A stretch of DNA of 9,360 nucleotides, taken from assembly GCA_002719475.1 (NCBI GenBank), contig PBHQ01000028.1, positions 4,248 through 13,607 on the forward strand, given 5' to 3'. The stretch comes from Methanobacteriota archaeon (lineage in GTDB: Archaea > Thermoplasmatota > Poseidoniia > Poseidoniales > Poseidoniaceae). The position numbers and the translations under genes were made by a program. The notes under the pieces are model-generated. The model saw only the letters and a list, made by a program, of their open reading frames with translations. It ran no database searches and had not been told where the DNA came from. Positions 1,107-9,286 of this stretch are shown one piece after another (the stretch's first letter is position 1; each line of letters opens with the position of its first letter).

Positions 1107-3965
1107 ATGAGCGCTCCTACTGCAGGTGCCGAGGGTGGGCTCAAATCGACTCTTGCGGACATCAAAGAACGCGGGAAAGCAAGACTCAAGATCATATCTG
1201 AGACCATTGAGGATGGCCTCGACAGGACATACTCGGCATTGCTTGAAGCACCAAAGATTACTCTAATCCTGATGTTGCTGCTGACTGCTTGGTTCGCCAA
1301 TATGGGCAGCACATTTCAAGATCAAATTGAAGACGATGTGGAGGTATTCCTCCCAGAAGGTGCTGATTCAACTGACCTGTTGATGGAAGTTCGTGAAGAA
1401 TGGTCTACGGATATCGGACTGATATACATCCAAACCAGCAATGCGCGACTAGGTTCAGCACAAGGATACAACGTCACCGATATACGAGTTTTAAAGGAAA
1501 TTTCGTGGATTGAAGGCGATGACAACAATGTCGAGAATGGAACTCTATCTAGAGGCCTTGACTGGGACAAGGGAGACCGCGGAGTGAACGATGGTGTCCT
1601 TTGGGTTATTTCTCCCGCACAAGTCATTAAGGAAGTCAACAGTACAGATGCACGCTTCAATACAGCGCTTTGTGAGCAAGTGGTACAAGACCGCATCTCA
1701 TTGAACATCGGGTGTGAAGGAATAGTTGACCAGTCCAATACAGGCGGGGCCTATTCGATTCCTGATGACCAAGACAGGGTTGATGAAATCGTCTCCCGTC
1801 TGAATGGTTCACTTTCCAACCTGTCTAGAGATACCAATTCAGATGGCATTTGGGATACAACAGTCATCGTCATAGGACTACATCACAATATGAGTATAAC
1901 CGGAGAATGGGATAACTTCGAGGAGTTCTTCGTGCACATTGATGCTATCATTGCACCGGAGAATCGGCCGGAATGGATGTTTGCTGAACCAAGCGGAACC
2001 ATGTTCCAGCAGACCGGTTTGACCAAGGTGTTGCAAGATATATCAGATGAGATCTATCAAGATTTACAGGCGATGCTACCCATTTCTTTGGTCATCGTTG
2101 TCCTGATAATTACTGCTCTACATCGTAGCTTCAAGGTTGTAGCAATTACAGGATTACCGATTATCATGGCTCTTGCCGTGACCTTTGGAACAACGGTACT
2201 GATGGACATAACACTGACTCCAATGATTGTTGCTTGTGGTCCGATATTGATTGGCCTGGGAGTGGACTATGCATTACACATGCTGAATCGTATCGAAGAG
2301 AGCAGAGCGAAGCGGCTGGATCAAATCGCTGAACGAAATCATCAGCGAAGAAGAGATGGACTACCACAGGAAGAAGTCCCAGACATCTGGGACCCTGAAC
2401 TCTACCGCAACTCAATTCTGGATATGTCGCGCACCACAGGAGTTGCGGTATTCATCTCTGCCATGACTACAATAGTTGGATTCTCAGTCATGATTATGCC
2501 TGCTATTGTTCCTGTTATTCCAATTAGAACTGTTGGTATGACCCTAGTCATCGGAATCATGTGCACTTTGATTTTCTCGATTATCCTAGTACCAACACTT
2601 GCCTGGTTGTTGAAGTATCACAAACGTGAAAATTCATCCAGATGGGGGAAAATAGGACGCTTGCCTGTCAATCATTTTCTCGTAATTATCATGCTTACTG
2701 GTGCAATAACCGCTTACGGAATCATCAATCTAGACCAACTGGACAAGCCGATAACCGGTTCGAGCGAGGCTCCAGAAGGAATCACTTCACTCGACACCCT
2801 TGCAACATATTCTGAGCAATTCGGGGGCGGACAAACGAGCATGTTCATCTTCGATGCCACCTCTAGGGCAAATAGCAATGGGACCACCAACATTCGTGAC
2901 ATACCTGTACTGGATGAGATGGATAGGTTGGAAAATAGAATAGGCAATGAAGTCGCAAATACTACTACTACTAGCCTAATCACCTTCCTGCGTTCAATTC
3001 CAATAGTCATTGAAGAAGATAATACTCAGATTTCTTTGTACAATGATACGATGTGGGGATTCTTGCATGATGAATGTTGGACCTCGGAATTAAGCGATGC
3101 AAATCCACGTTGCACCCTATTCTATGCGATGGACATAGACCCAGAAGGGCGCGCAGGGTGGAGAGCGGACATGGTTGACATCGTCTTCGATTCATTATCC
3201 AATGAAGTCCGTTCCATGCTCTTGAACTCGAACGAGGGCAAAGGGTTGGTGTATTGTGTTCAACCTTACCTCAATCTGGTATATGCAGGTGGATTGAGGG
3301 ATCAGATAGACGATATTCTGCTAGAAGACAATACTCTGAATGGCACTCATACCAGTAAGTTGACCGGTGGGTTACCAGTATCACTCGATATCAACAAAGG
3401 AATTCATGATACCCAATCAAGCACTACTATCTGGACGATGATAATTCTGACCTTGGTCATGATGTTGGTATTCCGTTCCTTCCGACTCGGAATAATCACA
3501 ATGATTCCAGTAGCAGTCGTTATTCTCTGGCAGCCACTGCTAATGCAATCTGGAGATGTTAATGTCAATATTTTCACCGCCATGATTGGAACTATTGTGT
3601 TCGGAATAGGAGTAGACGATAGTATCCACGTGATGCATCGTTTACGAGAGGAAGGTGAAACTCCCAAGGGCATACAGAATTCTATAGAGCACACTGGTCA
3701 GACCGTCTTTGAGACTACAGTGACTACGGTAGGAGGTATGGCGGCAGGATTCTTCGTATCTTTCCCTGGACTAGAGAATTTCTTCATCATGATGATGCTG
3801 TTGATTCTTTTCGCATTCCTTACCTCGGTTTTCCTGATGCCTGCAATAATCGCCGCATGGCAAAGCAGCAAACGACGCATCAAAGGTGGACATGCTTGGC
3901 GGGACCATGGCGAGGTGCCAATTCTCGAGAGTAAAGTCATCGATGCTGGACTATTGGACAAATAG
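1107..3965 (+). CDS. RND-superfamily (MMPL/COG1033-like) 12-TM transporter
   Basis: The 952-residue protein has the duplicated RND plan. TM1 is at about 50-67, followed by an extracytoplasmic domain at about 70-320 and TM2-TM6 between about 323 and 503. TM7 at about 522-541 starts the second half, with a second outer domain at about 545-770 and TM8-TM12 to about 925. TM4 carries G-L-G-V-D-Y-A-L-H (383-391) and TM10 the equivalent G-I-G-V-D-D-S-I-H (833-841), the charged intramembrane positions used for proton coupling in this superfamily. A hydrophilic insert of about 45 residues (395-440) sits between TM4 and TM5. The first outer domain contains D-T-N-S-D-G-I-W-D (242-250), resembling a calcium-binding loop. 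Length and topology fit MMPL-type exporters of lipids or other hydrophobic molecules rather than AcrB-type tripartite pumps; I see no membrane-fusion partner. An in-frame TGA at 1029 limits upstream extension, and ATG 1107 is a sensible start before a basic N-terminus. The stop codon directly abuts the RNase P RNA gene on the other strand. The substrate is unknown. Confidence 0.9.
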   Translation: MSAPTAGAEGGLKSTLADIKERGKARLKIISETIEDGLDRTYSALLEAPKITLILMLLLTAWFANMGSTFQDQIEDDVEVFLPEGADSTDLLMEVREEWSTDIGLIYIQTSNARLGSAQGYNVTDIRVLKEISWIEGDDNNVENGTLSRGLDWDKGDRGVNDGVLWVISPAQVIKEVNSTDARFNTALCEQVVQDRISLNIGCEGIVDQSNTGGAYSIPDDQDRVDEIVSRLNGSLSNLSRDTNSDGIWDTTVIVIGLHHNMSITGEWDNFEEFFVHIDAIIAPENRPEWMFAEPSGTMFQQTGLTKVLQDISDEIYQDLQAMLPISLVIVVLIITALHRSFKVVAITGLPIIMALAVTFGTTVLMDITLTPMIVACGPILIGLGVDYALHMLNRIEESRAKRLDQIAERNHQRRRDGLPQEEVPDIWDPELYRNSILDMSRTTGVAVFISAMTTIVGFSVMIMPAIVPVIPIRTVGMTLVIGIMCTLIFSIILVPTLAWLLKYHKRENSSRWGKIGRLPVNHFLVIIMLTGAITAYGIINLDQLDKPITGSSEAPEGITSLDTLATYSEQFGGGQTSMFIFDATSRANSNGTTNIRDIPVLDEMDRLENRIGNEVANTTTTSLITFLRSIPIVIEEDNTQISLYNDTMWGFLHDECWTSELSDANPRCTLFYAMDIDPEGRAGWRADMVDIVFDSLSNEVRSMLLNSNEGKGLVYCVQPYLNLVYAGGLRDQIDDILLEDNTLNGTHTSKLTGGLPVSLDINKGIHDTQSSTTIWTMIILTLVMMLVFRSFRLGIITMIPVAVVILWQPLLMQSGDVNVNIFTAMIGTIVFGIGVDDSIHVMHRLREEGETPKGIQNSIEHTGQTVFETTVTTVGGMAAGFFVSFPGLENFFIMMMLLILFAFLTSVFLMPAIIAAWQSSKRRIKGGHAWRDHGEVPILESKVIDAGLLDK

Positions 3966-3980
3966 TGTGGAGGGAGCAGG
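3966..3980 (-). repeat. 3' arm of the RNase P RNA P1 helix (pairs with 4261-4275)
   Basis: TGTGGAGGGAGCAGG on the + strand at 3966-3980 is the exact reverse complement of CCTGCTCCCTCCACA at 4261-4275. The two arms enclose the conserved RNase P RNA core and pair as its terminal P1 helix. This inverted repeat sets the RNA boundaries; it is not a mobile-element end, since nothing resembling a transposase lies between the arms. Confidence 0.9.
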
Positions 3981-4275
3981 GAATAAGCCCCTTTCTGTTC
4001 ACCAATTTGGCTGACCGCATTCAACTATGCGTCCTACCCGACCCTACGCGTGCAACCTCGACAGGTCTGTTTGGACTTGCTCCAACGGGGATGCTCGTCT
4101 CATCGGTAGTTAGGCAATCTCCGTCTTTCAACATCATTGTACACACCCGCTACCGTTCGTTTCTGCTGCAGTGCCTGCCCTCCCGGACACTCGGATCTCC
4201 CGAGCCGTTCGCACTATGGAGAGGGGACTTTCCTCAGGGTCCAACCCTGTCAGCGGTCCTCCTGCTCCCTCCACA
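3966..4275 (-). ncRNA. rnpB: RNase P RNA, archaeal type
   Basis: This is the catalytic RNA that removes 5' leaders from pre-tRNAs together with the archaeal Rpp proteins. Read on the minus strand it begins UGUGGAGGGAGCAGG (4275-4261) and ends CCUGCUCCCUCCACA (3980-3966), a perfect 15-bp P1 helix. Conserved region I, GAGGAAAGUCC, is at 4235-4225, and conserved region V, ACAGAAAGGGGCUUA, is at 3998-3984. Between them P4 forms as AAG[U]CCCCU (4230-4222) with AGGGGCUU (3992-3985), leaving the universally conserved bulged U at 4227. P2 is GACCGC (4258-4253) with GCGGUC (4018-4013), P3 is a CAGGGU/ACCCUG hairpin (4249-4235), and a CGGUAG/CUACCG helix joins 4155-4150 to 4109-4104. GGAGCAAGUCCAAA (4083-4070) matches the conserved element before P15. 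Only 5 nt separate GGGUAGG (4039-4033) from UAGUUGAAUG (4027-4018), so the bacterial P18 hairpin is absent, as in archaea. The last element has U where the usual form is UAGAUGAAUG. Ends are inferred from P1 and may differ by a few bases. Confidence 0.95.
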
Positions 4276-4289
4276 AAACCTCACGGAGG
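4275..4289 (-). terminator. Short hairpin plus T-run between the surface-protein gene and rnpB
   Basis: On the minus strand, CCTC (4289-4286), loop CGT, GAGG (4282-4279) and TTTT (4278-4275) form a small stem followed by four Ts. It begins 12 nt after the TGA of the giant surface-protein gene and ends at the inferred 5' end of RNase P RNA. It could end or attenuate the upstream transcript. The stem is only 4 bp and the T-run is short, so it may equally be part of the rnpB leader. No strong TATA box is visible at the expected spacing for a separate rnpB promoter; the nearest candidate is a weak GTATTGAA inside the last codons of the upstream gene (around 4301-4308). Confidence 0.3.
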
Positions 4290-4300
4290 CCTTCTTGGCT

Positions 4301-7300
4301 TCAATACTGTGTTTCCTGAACTTGGTGATGTGCCTGAGGCTGGAAGTGATCTCCATCAAGGTAATGATCTTCCTCACTAAGCAAAGATTCGCTATCATCT
4401 CCACCGCTGCGCATGTATATTGCCAAGACCACAATTAGTGACAACAGCAGCATTGCCAGAATCCACAGGAAAACTGGATTTACATTGCCTAAAGAACTAC
4501 TAAACCAAGATTCATCGCTCTTTTGAACTACTGAAACTGCCTCGCTACTACCTGATTCGACATCATCAAGATAGACAACCATAGTATATTCTCCTCTCTT
4601 CTTCAAAAGCCAGTCCACCCTTACCAGTTCGCTCTGGCCAAATGCAATCGCAACATCTGAATCATGAATAACAAGAGTCGAGCCATCGATATCCACCGCT
4701 TCCACGCGAACCCTAACTTCTCCATCCATTCTTCCGACGTTAGCGACACTGATGTCGACGACTAATTCATCGCCGACCTCTGCCCCATCAACAGCTGAGG
4801 TTCCAATTTCTGCATTCAACTCAAAGACTGGCTGTACCATCTCCATATTCCATGCAGCCATTGGAGATTCTGGTGAATTCAAATACTCGGAGAAAATATT
4901 TCCAGCCGCATCCTTACCTACAATCCATACCTCAAGCAGGACCTGTTTCTCAAATTGCCTTAAGTCAACAATTCCTTCAAGATCCAACAAAGCGGTAGCA
5001 GGAATTGAGGTGCCGCTACTACGAGATTGGGCAAGATAAGCGGGTGCTTCGCCCTCAGCCAATGGCAGGCTGTTACTTTCATCCTCGCGCAGTCTCCATT
5101 GCATCATCATCTGCTCCCCATCCATTTGGATATCCTCATGAATACGGAATTCGATTTCGATGGATTCTAGATCATCCAAAGACAGCACCGCACCTTTCCG
5201 TGGAGCGACAACATCACTGATTCTGGGAGCGGTTGCGTCAACAACGAACCAAATGGTTGCCTCGTTAGGATTGGTCAAGTCATCCGCCAATGCGGGAAGA
5301 TAATCTAGAGACAGAACCAATGGATGCTCCCCCGTTTGTGAGGACATCGTTACATCCAAGTTGAAAGAACCATTCTGCGACAATACACGATTGTTTGAAC
5401 CTAGGAATCTACCTAACACATCTATGTTCTGTAGGACTAATTCTCCCGAATCAGCCCACTTGACTAGACCTTCTACCTGCACCACTTGGCCTGGTTTTAC
5501 CCAAGCCCCTGCAACCTCTGCACCTATCCCCCCAGAAGATACCTCAAGGCTCGATGAATCAATCATCAAATCACTGCTAAAACGCCAACGCAAGTTTGGC
5601 AATACAGAGAAGGAATTCTGGAACGAACGATCCCATATCTCGATGGTTGGCTCTCTGTAAGTTGAACGGTCAGGCTGCATCTCCCAAGCCAGAGAGAATT
5701 GGATATCAAAGACCAAGTCTGTCGCATAAGGGCCCTCATCACCACTTCTAGATTTCAGGCTACACGAGTGTATGTTCAAGTATTGGTCACTGGTTGTACA
5801 AGTTCGTTGTTCTCCTTCCCATACTATCTCCATCGGAGATGTAGGAATCGTGCTGGCTAACTCAACGCGGATTCCAGCAACATCGCTTCTGCCATTTGGT
5901 TCATCGAAGGAGAATTGCATATGCTGTAGCTCACCAGGGTGCAACCAAGCCTTTGGCCCTGAAACATGACCTGCAGATGATGTATGAACAAATGGAGCGC
6001 CATCATCCCTGATTTGGTACATGAACAATTGATTGTCCCATCCCGGGCCACCTCCTCCAATCAACTCGTTTCCGGCAGGGTCACTGCTCAGGATGTAGCC
6101 AGAAACTACAGCACCCTGTGCTGCTGAAAGATCATTAACATAGGCTCGATAAATTCCTTGAGTAGCACTGAGATTGTCCGGCACTTCCAATTGAACTGCA
6201 AAATGTTCACCAGCATCGGGTATGCCATTCGAATCAACATCATCAATCCATGAGCGCCATAACATCATGGTAGCGTAATGAGGCAATACTGGAACATCGC
6301 CAATTGTGAACTCCAGTAACTGTGCCTGAGAAGTGGGCCTGTGGTCTTCAAAGGAAACGCTACTTGCCAACAGTACTGGAGCGAGTGAATCCGTAGTGAA
6401 TGAATGCTCATTAGCACATCTCCAGATTATTTCTTGAGAATCTCCTGCACTGACATTCAAAGTGAAAACTATTGGTTCACTACTAGAAGGAACGAGTATT
6501 GGTAACTTAGCAATACCCTGATCATCAACAGTACCTCTTGCTGCAATCACCCCATCAATGTGCAGAACAATATCGACCTCACCAACACGGGGAGTTTGCC
6601 AGGTGCTGTCTTCAAAGCGCATCTCAACTCCAACTTCAACCCAAGTTCCTGTTCTGAGATATGGCATTGAGAAAGGCACCTTCTGCCCAGCATGATTCTC
6701 TACCCACCAATCGTGTATTTCGATATCATTCTCGATTCCATTCAAGGGACCTTCGCCAAAATTCTCGACTGCAGATAAGCCACGGATACCATCATCCATG
6801 ACCGGCCTGACGCGGATGTCTGTCCAAGTCTCATCATCCCAATCCCGATGTATTTGGAATCTATGTTCTGTGAATACTTCGTTTCCTTGGAAAGTGGCAA
6901 CGGAAACCTCTTCTGAAAGATTGACCAGTGAATTATTTCCGCTTAATGGAATCACACTTCCATCCAATCTCTGAAGAAAACTGACTCGTCCGCTGTCGGA
7001 GATGATATCGAACTGTACCCCATTCATGTTACCGCTGAATACCTGATGTTGCGCATCTACCTCTATCCAATGTTCAGAGGCCGACAAAGTCTCACTACTG
7101 TTTAGTAGATTCAAAGAAGTGGTAATGCTACTATGCGAATTCTGCTGATTCAGAAGGCTAATTCGAACAGCACCCGGTAAAGCCATCTGCATAGCCAATG
7201 GTATCTGTATTGTCGAGGCGCTACCCATCATGTCGGATGCGACATCATTCAAACTCATCAGAAGAGGAGAGTCAGATGTGAACTCTACCTCAAATACCAA

Positions 7301-9286
7301 GTCTTGTGATATAGACAAACCCCTTACCAACAGGTCCCCAGATGCACTTGTGAATCTCAATGAAACCCTTGCACAATCAAGAATCCCATCTATCCATGTA
7401 CTGCTTGAATTAGCTAGCAGCGACGAAAGTTCATGAGTTTCATTTTCATCTAGAACTAGAAGAATTGGTTCCTGAAGATCGCCCAATACTCTCTGAGCAA
7501 TAGTTTGAGCATCAACGATTACTTCCACTTCTAGATTGGCCACTTGTGAAGTGATTGGCACCAATTCAAGACTGAAAGAGTTCACCTCGGTCTTTGGCAG
7601 TATGACTTCAAGATTCTGCGAGACAAAATTTGACAAGAACATCTGATGTGAATTAGCACCGTTTGAGAATCTTTGTTGATGCCCTAGCCAGCCGAGTGAT
7701 GGATCGGAAATCTCCATCTCTTTTGCCCCATCATGACCAATATCTATAGAGAGGTCTTGCGGCATCCCTCCACCATTCAAATCGATATTGAACGATTCGA
7801 TACTCCAGACTCCAGAGGTGCTCCTTATTTCGAACTGTAAATGCGACATTGGGGCTGGAAGTAAGGTCACTCCCTTGTCTGGCAGTGCTTTCCAAACATC
7901 ATCGATATCGTAGAATCCAAACTCCACATTCCCACTCAGTGTTATGTCAGTGAATATGCGAGATGTAGGACGTGCAAGGTTGAATTCTGGAGGTACAATC
8001 TTTGAGACGCCATTGCCACGTAGTTCACCGCTGTCCGAAACCGCTACCCAACTACAATTCTCTAGATACCAACCATCATCAACAGGATATTGGATTAGCT
8101 CGCTTCGCCATCGTCCCATCATGTTGATCGATTTTATCCAAGGAGACCCACCACTACCTTCAGCTAACTCTATCTTGAAATTAATTGAAGGATGCTTGAC
8201 CCAATCAATGGTACCGATATCTGCAACCAAGTCATCTCTTGCCTCAAATCCAGGAATCACAGTATTCAATGTCGCATCAAAAATACTCCAAGATATTGTT
8301 GAACCCGTAGGATATACACCTACCAATGACATCAGACCATAGGGACCAGGAGCAACTTGGATATCGGAATCAGTGGTATGCCCGAGAGATGGAGATTTCC
8401 ACCAGCCTGCAGAGTTAGAAACGCCACTTACTGGTGTGATTTGGAGATCATCGATGTTCCAACCAGTATAGGTCACCGAACCATCAGTGGTTCCGATTCC
8501 AAATCGTATCTGAAAATCGGGGTTGTTAGAAATGTACGAAGAGATGCTATAGGAGACTCTAGTGAAACTATTTTCAATGACTGTTGTGGAAGAGTGAGAC
8601 CATACGCTATTCCAGTTGCCGTTGGCATCCTTGGCTTGGATGTATGCGTGATCGTAGTAATAACTCTCAATTCCAAGACGCCTTTGGAATGACATCTCCC
8701 ATGAACCAGAACAATGGGAACAGTTGATACTAGGGCTGGTTGCCCAAGATGTGCTGGACAAGGAATTCGGGTAATTTCCATTGTAAGTATAGAGGGCATT
8801 AGTACCCGAGGTCGTACGAGGGTTGGAAAGCGAGGTATCTTGGCCAACATACCAACCACTACCAAGAGTCCATTGGCTTCCTGTTCCATTCTCAAAATCG
8901 TAAGATATTCCCAGCGGTAATACCTTGATTCCGGTGCCATTGTATTGGATGTTCTCAAAGTCTGCCCGACTATCGTTGAAATCCTGGGTGTTCTGCCATG
9001 ACAATTCTTCCTGCCGCGGCAAAATCATCGGTTCCATCGACAAGGATAACGAGTCAACGCTATGTCCGTCGGCAACTTCGACCTCATACTGACTACTCAT
9101 TCCATTTGGCCACTGTGCAATATTCACAATTGTATAGCCTGGGTCCGAAAATGAAGTTCCAGCTTTCAGTTCATTCAATTCTTTGTCTCCTTCAACTGCA
9201 AAATCTGCAATTAAGGGTGCCATGCTCATTATAATCATCAATCCGACCAAAAATATCGGCCGGGTCGGTATGCTACTTCGGTGCAT
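4301..9286 (-). CDS. Giant secreted multi-domain surface protein with C-terminal membrane anchor
   Basis: The 1661-residue product has an N-terminal signal sequence (basic start, hydrophobic 11-27) and a single TM helix at about 1606-1625. R1626 and a 35-residue acidic, His/Gln-rich cytoplasmic tail follow, giving a type I protein with about 1570 residues outside. Residues about 129-284 form a jelly-roll, MAM-like module: a start Y-D-F-E-N-G, a central A-T-S-P-S-I and the closing GWNIDDLQI (275-283), a signature found after the catalytic domain in M6-type and related secreted peptidases. I see no HExxH zinc site here. Two related beta modules seem to follow, both closing with a hydrophobic-strand pattern (W-I-K-S-I-N and W-S-I-E-S-F-N). 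D-V-D-S-N-G-I-P-D-A-G-E (1016-1027) looks like a calcium loop. An Ig-like module begins near V-V-D-A-T-A-P (1348), and residues about 1487-1588 look like a CARDB/APHP-type beta domain next to the membrane. Many N-X-S/T sequons suggest N-glycosylation. Role unknown; adhesion, envelope structure or glycan binding are possible. Confidence 0.88.
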   Translation of the reverse strand: MHRSSIPTRPIFLVGLMIIMSMAPLIADFAVEGDKELNELKAGTSFSDPGYTIVNIAQWPNGMSSQYEVEVADGHSVDSLSLSMEPMILPRQEELSWQNTQDFNDSRADFENIQYNGTGIKVLPLGISYDFENGTGSQWTLGSGWYVGQDTSLSNPRTTSGTNALYTYNGNYPNSLSSTSWATSPSINCSHCSGSWEMSFQRRLGIESYYYDHAYIQAKDANGNWNSVWSHSSTTVIENSFTRVSYSISSYISNNPDFQIRFGIGTTDGSVTYTGWNIDDLQITPVSGVSNSAGWWKSPSLGHTTDSDIQVAPGPYGLMSLVGVYPTGSTISWSIFDATLNTVIPGFEARDDLVADIGTIDWVKHPSINFKIELAEGSGGSPWIKSINMMGRWRSELIQYPVDDGWYLENCSWVAVSDSGELRGNGVSKIVPPEFNLARPTSRIFTDITLSGNVEFGFYDIDDVWKALPDKGVTLLPAPMSHLQFEIRSTSGVWSIESFNIDLNGGGMPQDLSIDIGHDGAKEMEISDPSLGWLGHQQRFSNGANSHQMFLSNFVSQNLEVILPKTEVNSFSLELVPITSQVANLEVEVIVDAQTIAQRVLGDLQEPILLVLDENETHELSSLLANSSSTWIDGILDCARVSLRFTSASGDLLVRGLSISQDLVFEVEFTSDSPLLMSLNDVASDMMGSASTIQIPLAMQMALPGAVRISLLNQQNSHSSITTSLNLLNSSETLSASEHWIEVDAQHQVFSGNMNGVQFDIISDSGRVSFLQRLDGSVIPLSGNNSLVNLSEEVSVATFQGNEVFTEHRFQIHRDWDDETWTDIRVRPVMDDGIRGLSAVENFGEGPLNGIENDIEIHDWWVENHAGQKVPFSMPYLRTGTWVEVGVEMRFEDSTWQTPRVGEVDIVLHIDGVIAARGTVDDQGIAKLPILVPSSSEPIVFTLNVSAGDSQEIIWRCANEHSFTTDSLAPVLLASSVSFEDHRPTSQAQLLEFTIGDVPVLPHYATMMLWRSWIDDVDSNGIPDAGEHFAVQLEVPDNLSATQGIYRAYVNDLSAAQGAVVSGYILSSDPAGNELIGGGGPGWDNQLFMYQIRDDGAPFVHTSSAGHVSGPKAWLHPGELQHMQFSFDEPNGRSDVAGIRVELASTIPTSPMEIVWEGEQRTCTTSDQYLNIHSCSLKSRSGDEGPYATDLVFDIQFSLAWEMQPDRSTYREPTIEIWDRSFQNSFSVLPNLRWRFSSDLMIDSSSLEVSSGGIGAEVAGAWVKPGQVVQVEGLVKWADSGELVLQNIDVLGRFLGSNNRVLSQNGSFNLDVTMSSQTGEHPLVLSLDYLPALADDLTNPNEATIWFVVDATAPRISDVVAPRKGAVLSLDDLESIEIEFRIHEDIQMDGEQMMMQWRLREDESNSLPLAEGEAPAYLAQSRSSGTSIPATALLDLEGIVDLRQFEKQVLLEVWIVGKDAAGNIFSEYLNSPESPMAAWNMEMVQPVFELNAEIGTSAVDGAEVGDELVVDISVANVGRMDGEVRVRVEAVDIDGSTLVIHDSDVAIAFGQSELVRVDWLLKKRGEYTMVVYLDDVESGSSEAVSVVQKSDESWFSSSLGNVNPVFLWILAMLLLSLIVVLAIYMRSGGDDSESLLSEEDHYLDGDHFQPQAHHQVQETQY

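Follow-up and report, generated by a model that had tools for sequence, protein, structure and literature searches.

An archaeal RNase P RNA gene between convergent protein genes of a Candidatus Poseidoniales (Marine Group II) contig

The RNA gene and its Rfam matches

The window considered here, 9,360 nucleotides of contig PBHQ01000028.1 (assembly GCA_002719475.1), carries on its minus strand, at 3966–4275, what is almost certainly the gene for the RNase P RNA subunit of a planktonic marine archaeon, a member of Candidatus Poseidoniales (Marine Group II), probably of the family Poseidoniaceae and probably single-copy. The RNA is of the archaeal, type A-like form and is encoded in a 335-bp gap (3966–4300) between two convergent open reading frames (ORFs), which end at 3965 on the plus strand and at 4301 on the minus strand. 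The archaeal Rfam family RF00373 (RNaseP_arch) was matched by cmscan at 3972–4269 of the minus strand over the whole model (1–288) with 228.8 bits (E 6.3e-68; gathering score 84), a match far beyond chance. Both ends of this match fall 6 nt inside the ends of the 15-bp helix P1, by which the ends of the gene were set. A preliminary description of the window had placed an archaeal RNase P RNA in this gap with ends near 4275 and 3966, in agreement with both the model match and the helix. RF00373 is the sole Rfam family reported across the window at gathering thresholds; only the better member of a clan is printed in the Rfam listing, from which one same-clan match of lower score is omitted. Outside the RNase P clan, no Rfam match was obtained on 3900–4330 at E values up to 10.

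The bacterial class A RNase P RNA (RF00010) shares the core with the RNA of the window. Its model matched the RNA of the related genome G001, the cut-out of which differs from that of the window in 1 of 314 bases, with 86.2 bits over model positions 1–367. This value is below the RF00010 cut-off of 100 and, as had been expected beforehand, below the archaeal score of the window (228.8 bits). In ten related genomes, G001 among them, RF00010 matched at the same places as RF00373, with 73.5 to 93.1 bits and under the cut-off in all ten. That the archaeal score exceeds the bacterial one refutes the alternative that the contig is bacterial or a contaminant and carries a bacterial gene for this RNA, an alternative whose probability is considered practically nil. 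One of 19 related loci, L003, does come from a record titled Deltaproteobacteria, but the other 18 record titles read Euryarchaeota, euryarchaeote or Poseidoniales/Poseidoniaceae, the bacterial protein RnpA was found in none of 11 related genomes, and the RNA of the window has no helix P18. The absence of P18, a mark of archaeal forms, had been noted in the preliminary description as well: the 3' strand of P15 is separated from that of P2 by 12 nt only (4030–4019).

Fold and covariation

All strands of the fold are on the minus strand. P1 consists of 15 Watson-Crick pairs between its 5' strand (4261–4275) and its 3' strand (3966–3980), followed by the 5' strand of P2 (4253–4258, pairing with 4013–4018) and the P3 hairpin (4235–4249). 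The conserved core CR-I, GAGGAAAGUCC, was read from the sequence at 4225–4235 and contains a bulged U at 4227, while CR-V, ACAGAAAGGGGCUUA, at 3984–3998 contains the 3' strand of P4. The latter helix joins the two cores by pairing 4222–4230 with 3985–3992 (AAG-CCCCU / AGGGGCUU, U4227 bulged). P1, both cores and the bulged P4 were thereby found where the preliminary description had put them. Two elements absent from it are the P6 pseudoknot (4211–4214, pairing with 4050–4053) and the P19 hairpin (4001–4011). According to the covariance model (CM) alignment, P5 (4221–4218 / 4083–4080) encloses the region 4080–4221 with the specificity domain P7–P12 and the 5' strand of P6; P15 (4076–4073 / 4034–4031) and P16 (4067–4063 / 4044–4040) lie at 4031–4076. 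The type A-like label rests on helices P6, P8 and P16, which the RNA has. With the type A-like RNAs of RF00373, the RNA of the window shares P1–P12, P15, P16, the P6 pseudoknot, CR-I, CR-V, the lack of P18 and the full-length match; it differs from the model in P19, which is an insertion there. P19 is not new; PMC12974513 reports it from various clades, archaeal as well as bacterial.

That this copy is degenerate or does not function is very improbable; nothing was found for such a reading, and the full-length match, the intact conserved cores and the formation of the P1–P4 and P6 pairs in the window argue against that reading, as do ten related genomes with one full-length RF00373 gene each.

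For the analysis of covariation, 137 RNAs were cut from their loci, giving 120 distinct sequences, the window included, and pairs were counted on a MAFFT alignment. Nineteen entries were left out because of a missing motif, N or edges, among them L092 and L097 despite full-length matches. The cell counts are inflated by the relatedness of the sequences, and controls with slid strands are the fairer yardstick: a shift of one or two positions lowers the well-aligned helices to 5%–75% paired cells, P4 accounting for the 75%. Covariation supports P1, P2, P3, P6, P7, P9, outer P12, P16 and P19 across the 120 distinct RNAs. Paired cells amounted to 1369/1440 for the inner 12 pairs of P1, with double changes in 10/12 pairs, to 719/720 for P2 (double changes in 4/6 pairs) and to 600/600 for P3 (2/5). 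The P6 pseudoknot was paired in 441/480 cells with double changes in all four pairs, P16 in 596/600 (3/5 pairs) and P15 in 480/480 (2/4). P5 (476/480 cells; double changes in 1/4 pairs), P7 (590/600; 4/5), P9 (445/480; 4/4) and outer P12 (560/600; 5/5) had 93–99% of their cells paired. P19 was paired in 308/371 cells, compared to at most 38.5% when slid, and showed double changes in 3/4 pairs.

P4 was paired in 960/960 cells and is invariant except for one U-G cell, without any double change. Because it hardly varies, P4 neither supports nor contradicts the fold in this order. Of the compensatory changes which the preliminary description had named as a check for P1, P2 and P4, those in the first two helices were present. 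Weaker helices were P10 (196/240 cells) and P11 (387/480), both 81–82% paired. P8 was paired in 399/597 cells (67%), rising to 74% after a slide by one, and inner P12 in 177/402 (44%) in a register one base off, rising to 97% after a one-base slide; for these two helices, the CM alignment is a better guide than the MAFFT pair counts.

An ACAAAA in place of ACAGAA occurs in the CR-V of 10 out of 120 distinct RNAs (loci L017/L025, L053, L101, L104, L105, L135, L138, L145, L151, L152 and L155). Exact searches for the ACAGAA motif therefore miss these RNAs.

The other strand holds an ORF at 3965–4438 (plus strand, 157 aa), which the preliminary description had named as a false protein and which does exist, without a Pfam match. 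A protein encoded there, the RNA likeness being incidental, is nevertheless a most improbable explanation. The frame is open in the window, and in 111/120 relatives the RNA shares 200 nt or more with a frame open from stop to stop, so that false protein calls are to be expected here; the changes among relatives, however, keep base pairs. The same situation in Marine Group II was judged a likely misannotation by Hou et al. 2016 (PMC5069720). There, nine abundant Marine Group II non-coding RNAs of 292–306 nt from a marine metatranscriptome, antisense to an annotated gene, were matched to RF00373, the Red Sea transcripts being read against Mediterranean fosmid sequences. Compared by description, these RNAs resemble the one in the window in group, Rfam family, size and antisense misannotation; the size of about 310 nt and the annotation error had both been foreseen in the preliminary description. 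Its finding is already published with expression data in PMC5069720. In the collection of papers searched by text, this was the only one returned for RNase P RNA combined with Marine Group II, and none was returned for RNase P combined with Poseidoniales. The gene is an ordinary housekeeping one whose kind has been described from Marine Group II before, and there is nothing surprising about the RNA. For annotation, its value is that an RNA gene takes the place of what would otherwise stand as an empty gap or as a protein call that is probably false. Furthermore, the RNA serves as a reliable marker for assigning the contig to the Marine Group II archaea.

Proposed function, gene distribution and protein subunits

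RNase P trims the 5' end of transfer RNAs (tRNAs), and its RNA is essential in other organisms. The RNA folds into a catalytic domain (P1–P6, P15, P16 and P19) and a specificity domain (P7–P12). By the proposed mechanism, it would cut the 5' leader off precursor tRNAs together with archaeal protein subunits. The metal-binding active site would be formed by P4 and its bulged U, and transcription may start from the gene's own promoter just upstream. Sequence, structure, covariation, conserved place and the Rpp21 and Rpp29 genes of relatives were observed directly; that the RNA is catalytic and essential, what P4 does in it and that it is transcribed from its own promoter are inferred from knowledge of the family.

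Copy number and protein set rest on relatives of the window's genome. Among 145 genomes of the order, RF00373 was matched in 125 (E up to 0.001) and scored over the cut-off in 123. No evidence against the identity of the RNA as RNase P RNA was found. Two negative results among the relatives do count against the overall interpretation: 20 of the 145 genomes gave no RF00373 match under stricter filters, by which weak matches are lost, and neither Pop5 nor Rpp30 was seen by Pfam in the 11 relatives searched. The genomes devoid of a match are presumed to be incomplete assemblies. G118 and G076, with two full-length matches each, are presumed to be mixed assemblies.

The proteins of the archaeal RNase P holoenzyme are Pop5, Rpp30, Rpp21, Rpp29 and L7Ae. 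An Rpp29 gene was detected in 9 and an Rpp21 gene in 10 of the 11 relatives. A Pop5 gene is present in the group, below the Pfam threshold. Rpp30 was searched for with PF01876 in G001–G010 and G012 and found in none of these 11, nor over the cut-off in any of 145 genomes of the phylum; the model also misses the Sulfolobus protein at E 0.001. Weak PF01876 matches (37/145 genomes, E up to 0.1) were considered as Rpp30 candidates and rejected: two of them (L208 and L210) are a PHP-type protein in an apparent histidine operon, as judged by eye. The frames containing these weak matches are 550–620 aa long in 22 of 38 cases.

It is conceivable, yet rather unlikely, that the Marine Group II holoenzyme is non-standard, with a strongly diverged Pop5, mostly unnamed or annotated as hypothetical and encoded outside the usual proteasome-exosome operon, and possibly working without Rpp30. 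In that case, the type A-like RNA would be complete while the proteins working with it would be fewer and altered. Whether RNase P proteins missing in archaea such as Thermoplasma are lost or merely diverged is left open in an excerpt of PMC4919917. The Pop5 gene below the threshold bears on this doubt, and for Pop5 in this order the evidence leans to divergence rather than loss.

Neighbouring genes, promoter candidate and assembly irregularities

The convergent downstream neighbour of the RNA gene (1107–3965, plus strand) encodes an MMPL/RND-type membrane protein of 952 aa (PF03176, E 1e-28). The upstream neighbour (4301–9286, minus strand) encodes a protein of 1661 aa without a Pfam match. 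By eye, the latter begins with a signal-like hydrophobic stretch and has a second hydrophobic segment close to its C-terminus, so that it may be located at the cell surface. When reference genomes were scanned with the MMPL protein, 19 loci (L001–L019) were obtained, the closest of which (L001, metagenome-assembled genome UBA226) has 99% amino acid identity in the MMPL protein and an RNA differing from that of the window in 1 of 314 bases. A relative of the MMPL gene was located antisense and at most 1100 nt downstream in 99 of the 116 RNAs with enough flank, a count favoured by L001–L019 because these were found via their MMPL gene. When these loci and their genomes are excluded, the count is 88/104. 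A relative of the upstream gene was found in 60/115, or in 49/104 without the MMPL-scan loci. There are exceptions to this adjacency: in L003, some 2.7 kb lie between the MMPL gene and the RNA beyond it, and in L002 an MMPL relative is present while the RNase P RNA was not found.

A possible promoter element, TTGAA, is located at 4300–4304 (minus strand), 25–29 nt before the 5' end of P1. It overlaps the stop codon of the upstream gene, which ends 25 nt ahead of P1. At −36 to −14, TTGAA alone was found in 45/119 and TTGAA or GTTCWT in 90/119, compared to 3–8 of 117–118 in six near control windows and 2–20 of 111–116 in five control windows further upstream. Since the pattern was picked after viewing the sequences, it counts as a hint at a promoter rather than as a test of one; it may be the promoter form of this group. 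The canonical archaeal TATA box, TTTAWATA, was found exactly in none of 119 at −36 to −14. Within 70 nt upstream, it was present in 0/118 exactly and in 5/118 with one mismatch (2/111 in control windows).

Phage and plasmid collections contained no related DNA, as expected. Several odd RF00373 matches were considered as interrupted, split or tandem RNase P RNAs and discarded. Those in G059 (620-nt span), G149 (partial) and G096 (two pieces) are due to scaffold N runs, and the partial matches in G021, G062, G147, G047, G108 and G136 as well as both pieces in G086 lie at most 18 nt from contig ends; no sign of an insertion or a split gene was left among them. N runs are located inside or beside the RNase P RNA gene in three assemblies (L061, L062 and L064), and several contigs end within it, making the gene a recurrent assembly break point. 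The record of L003 (JAOMAZ010000003.1), titled Deltaproteobacteria bacterium, holds a Poseidoniales-like MMPL gene together with an archaeal RNase P RNA and is probably a mislabelled or mixed assembly.
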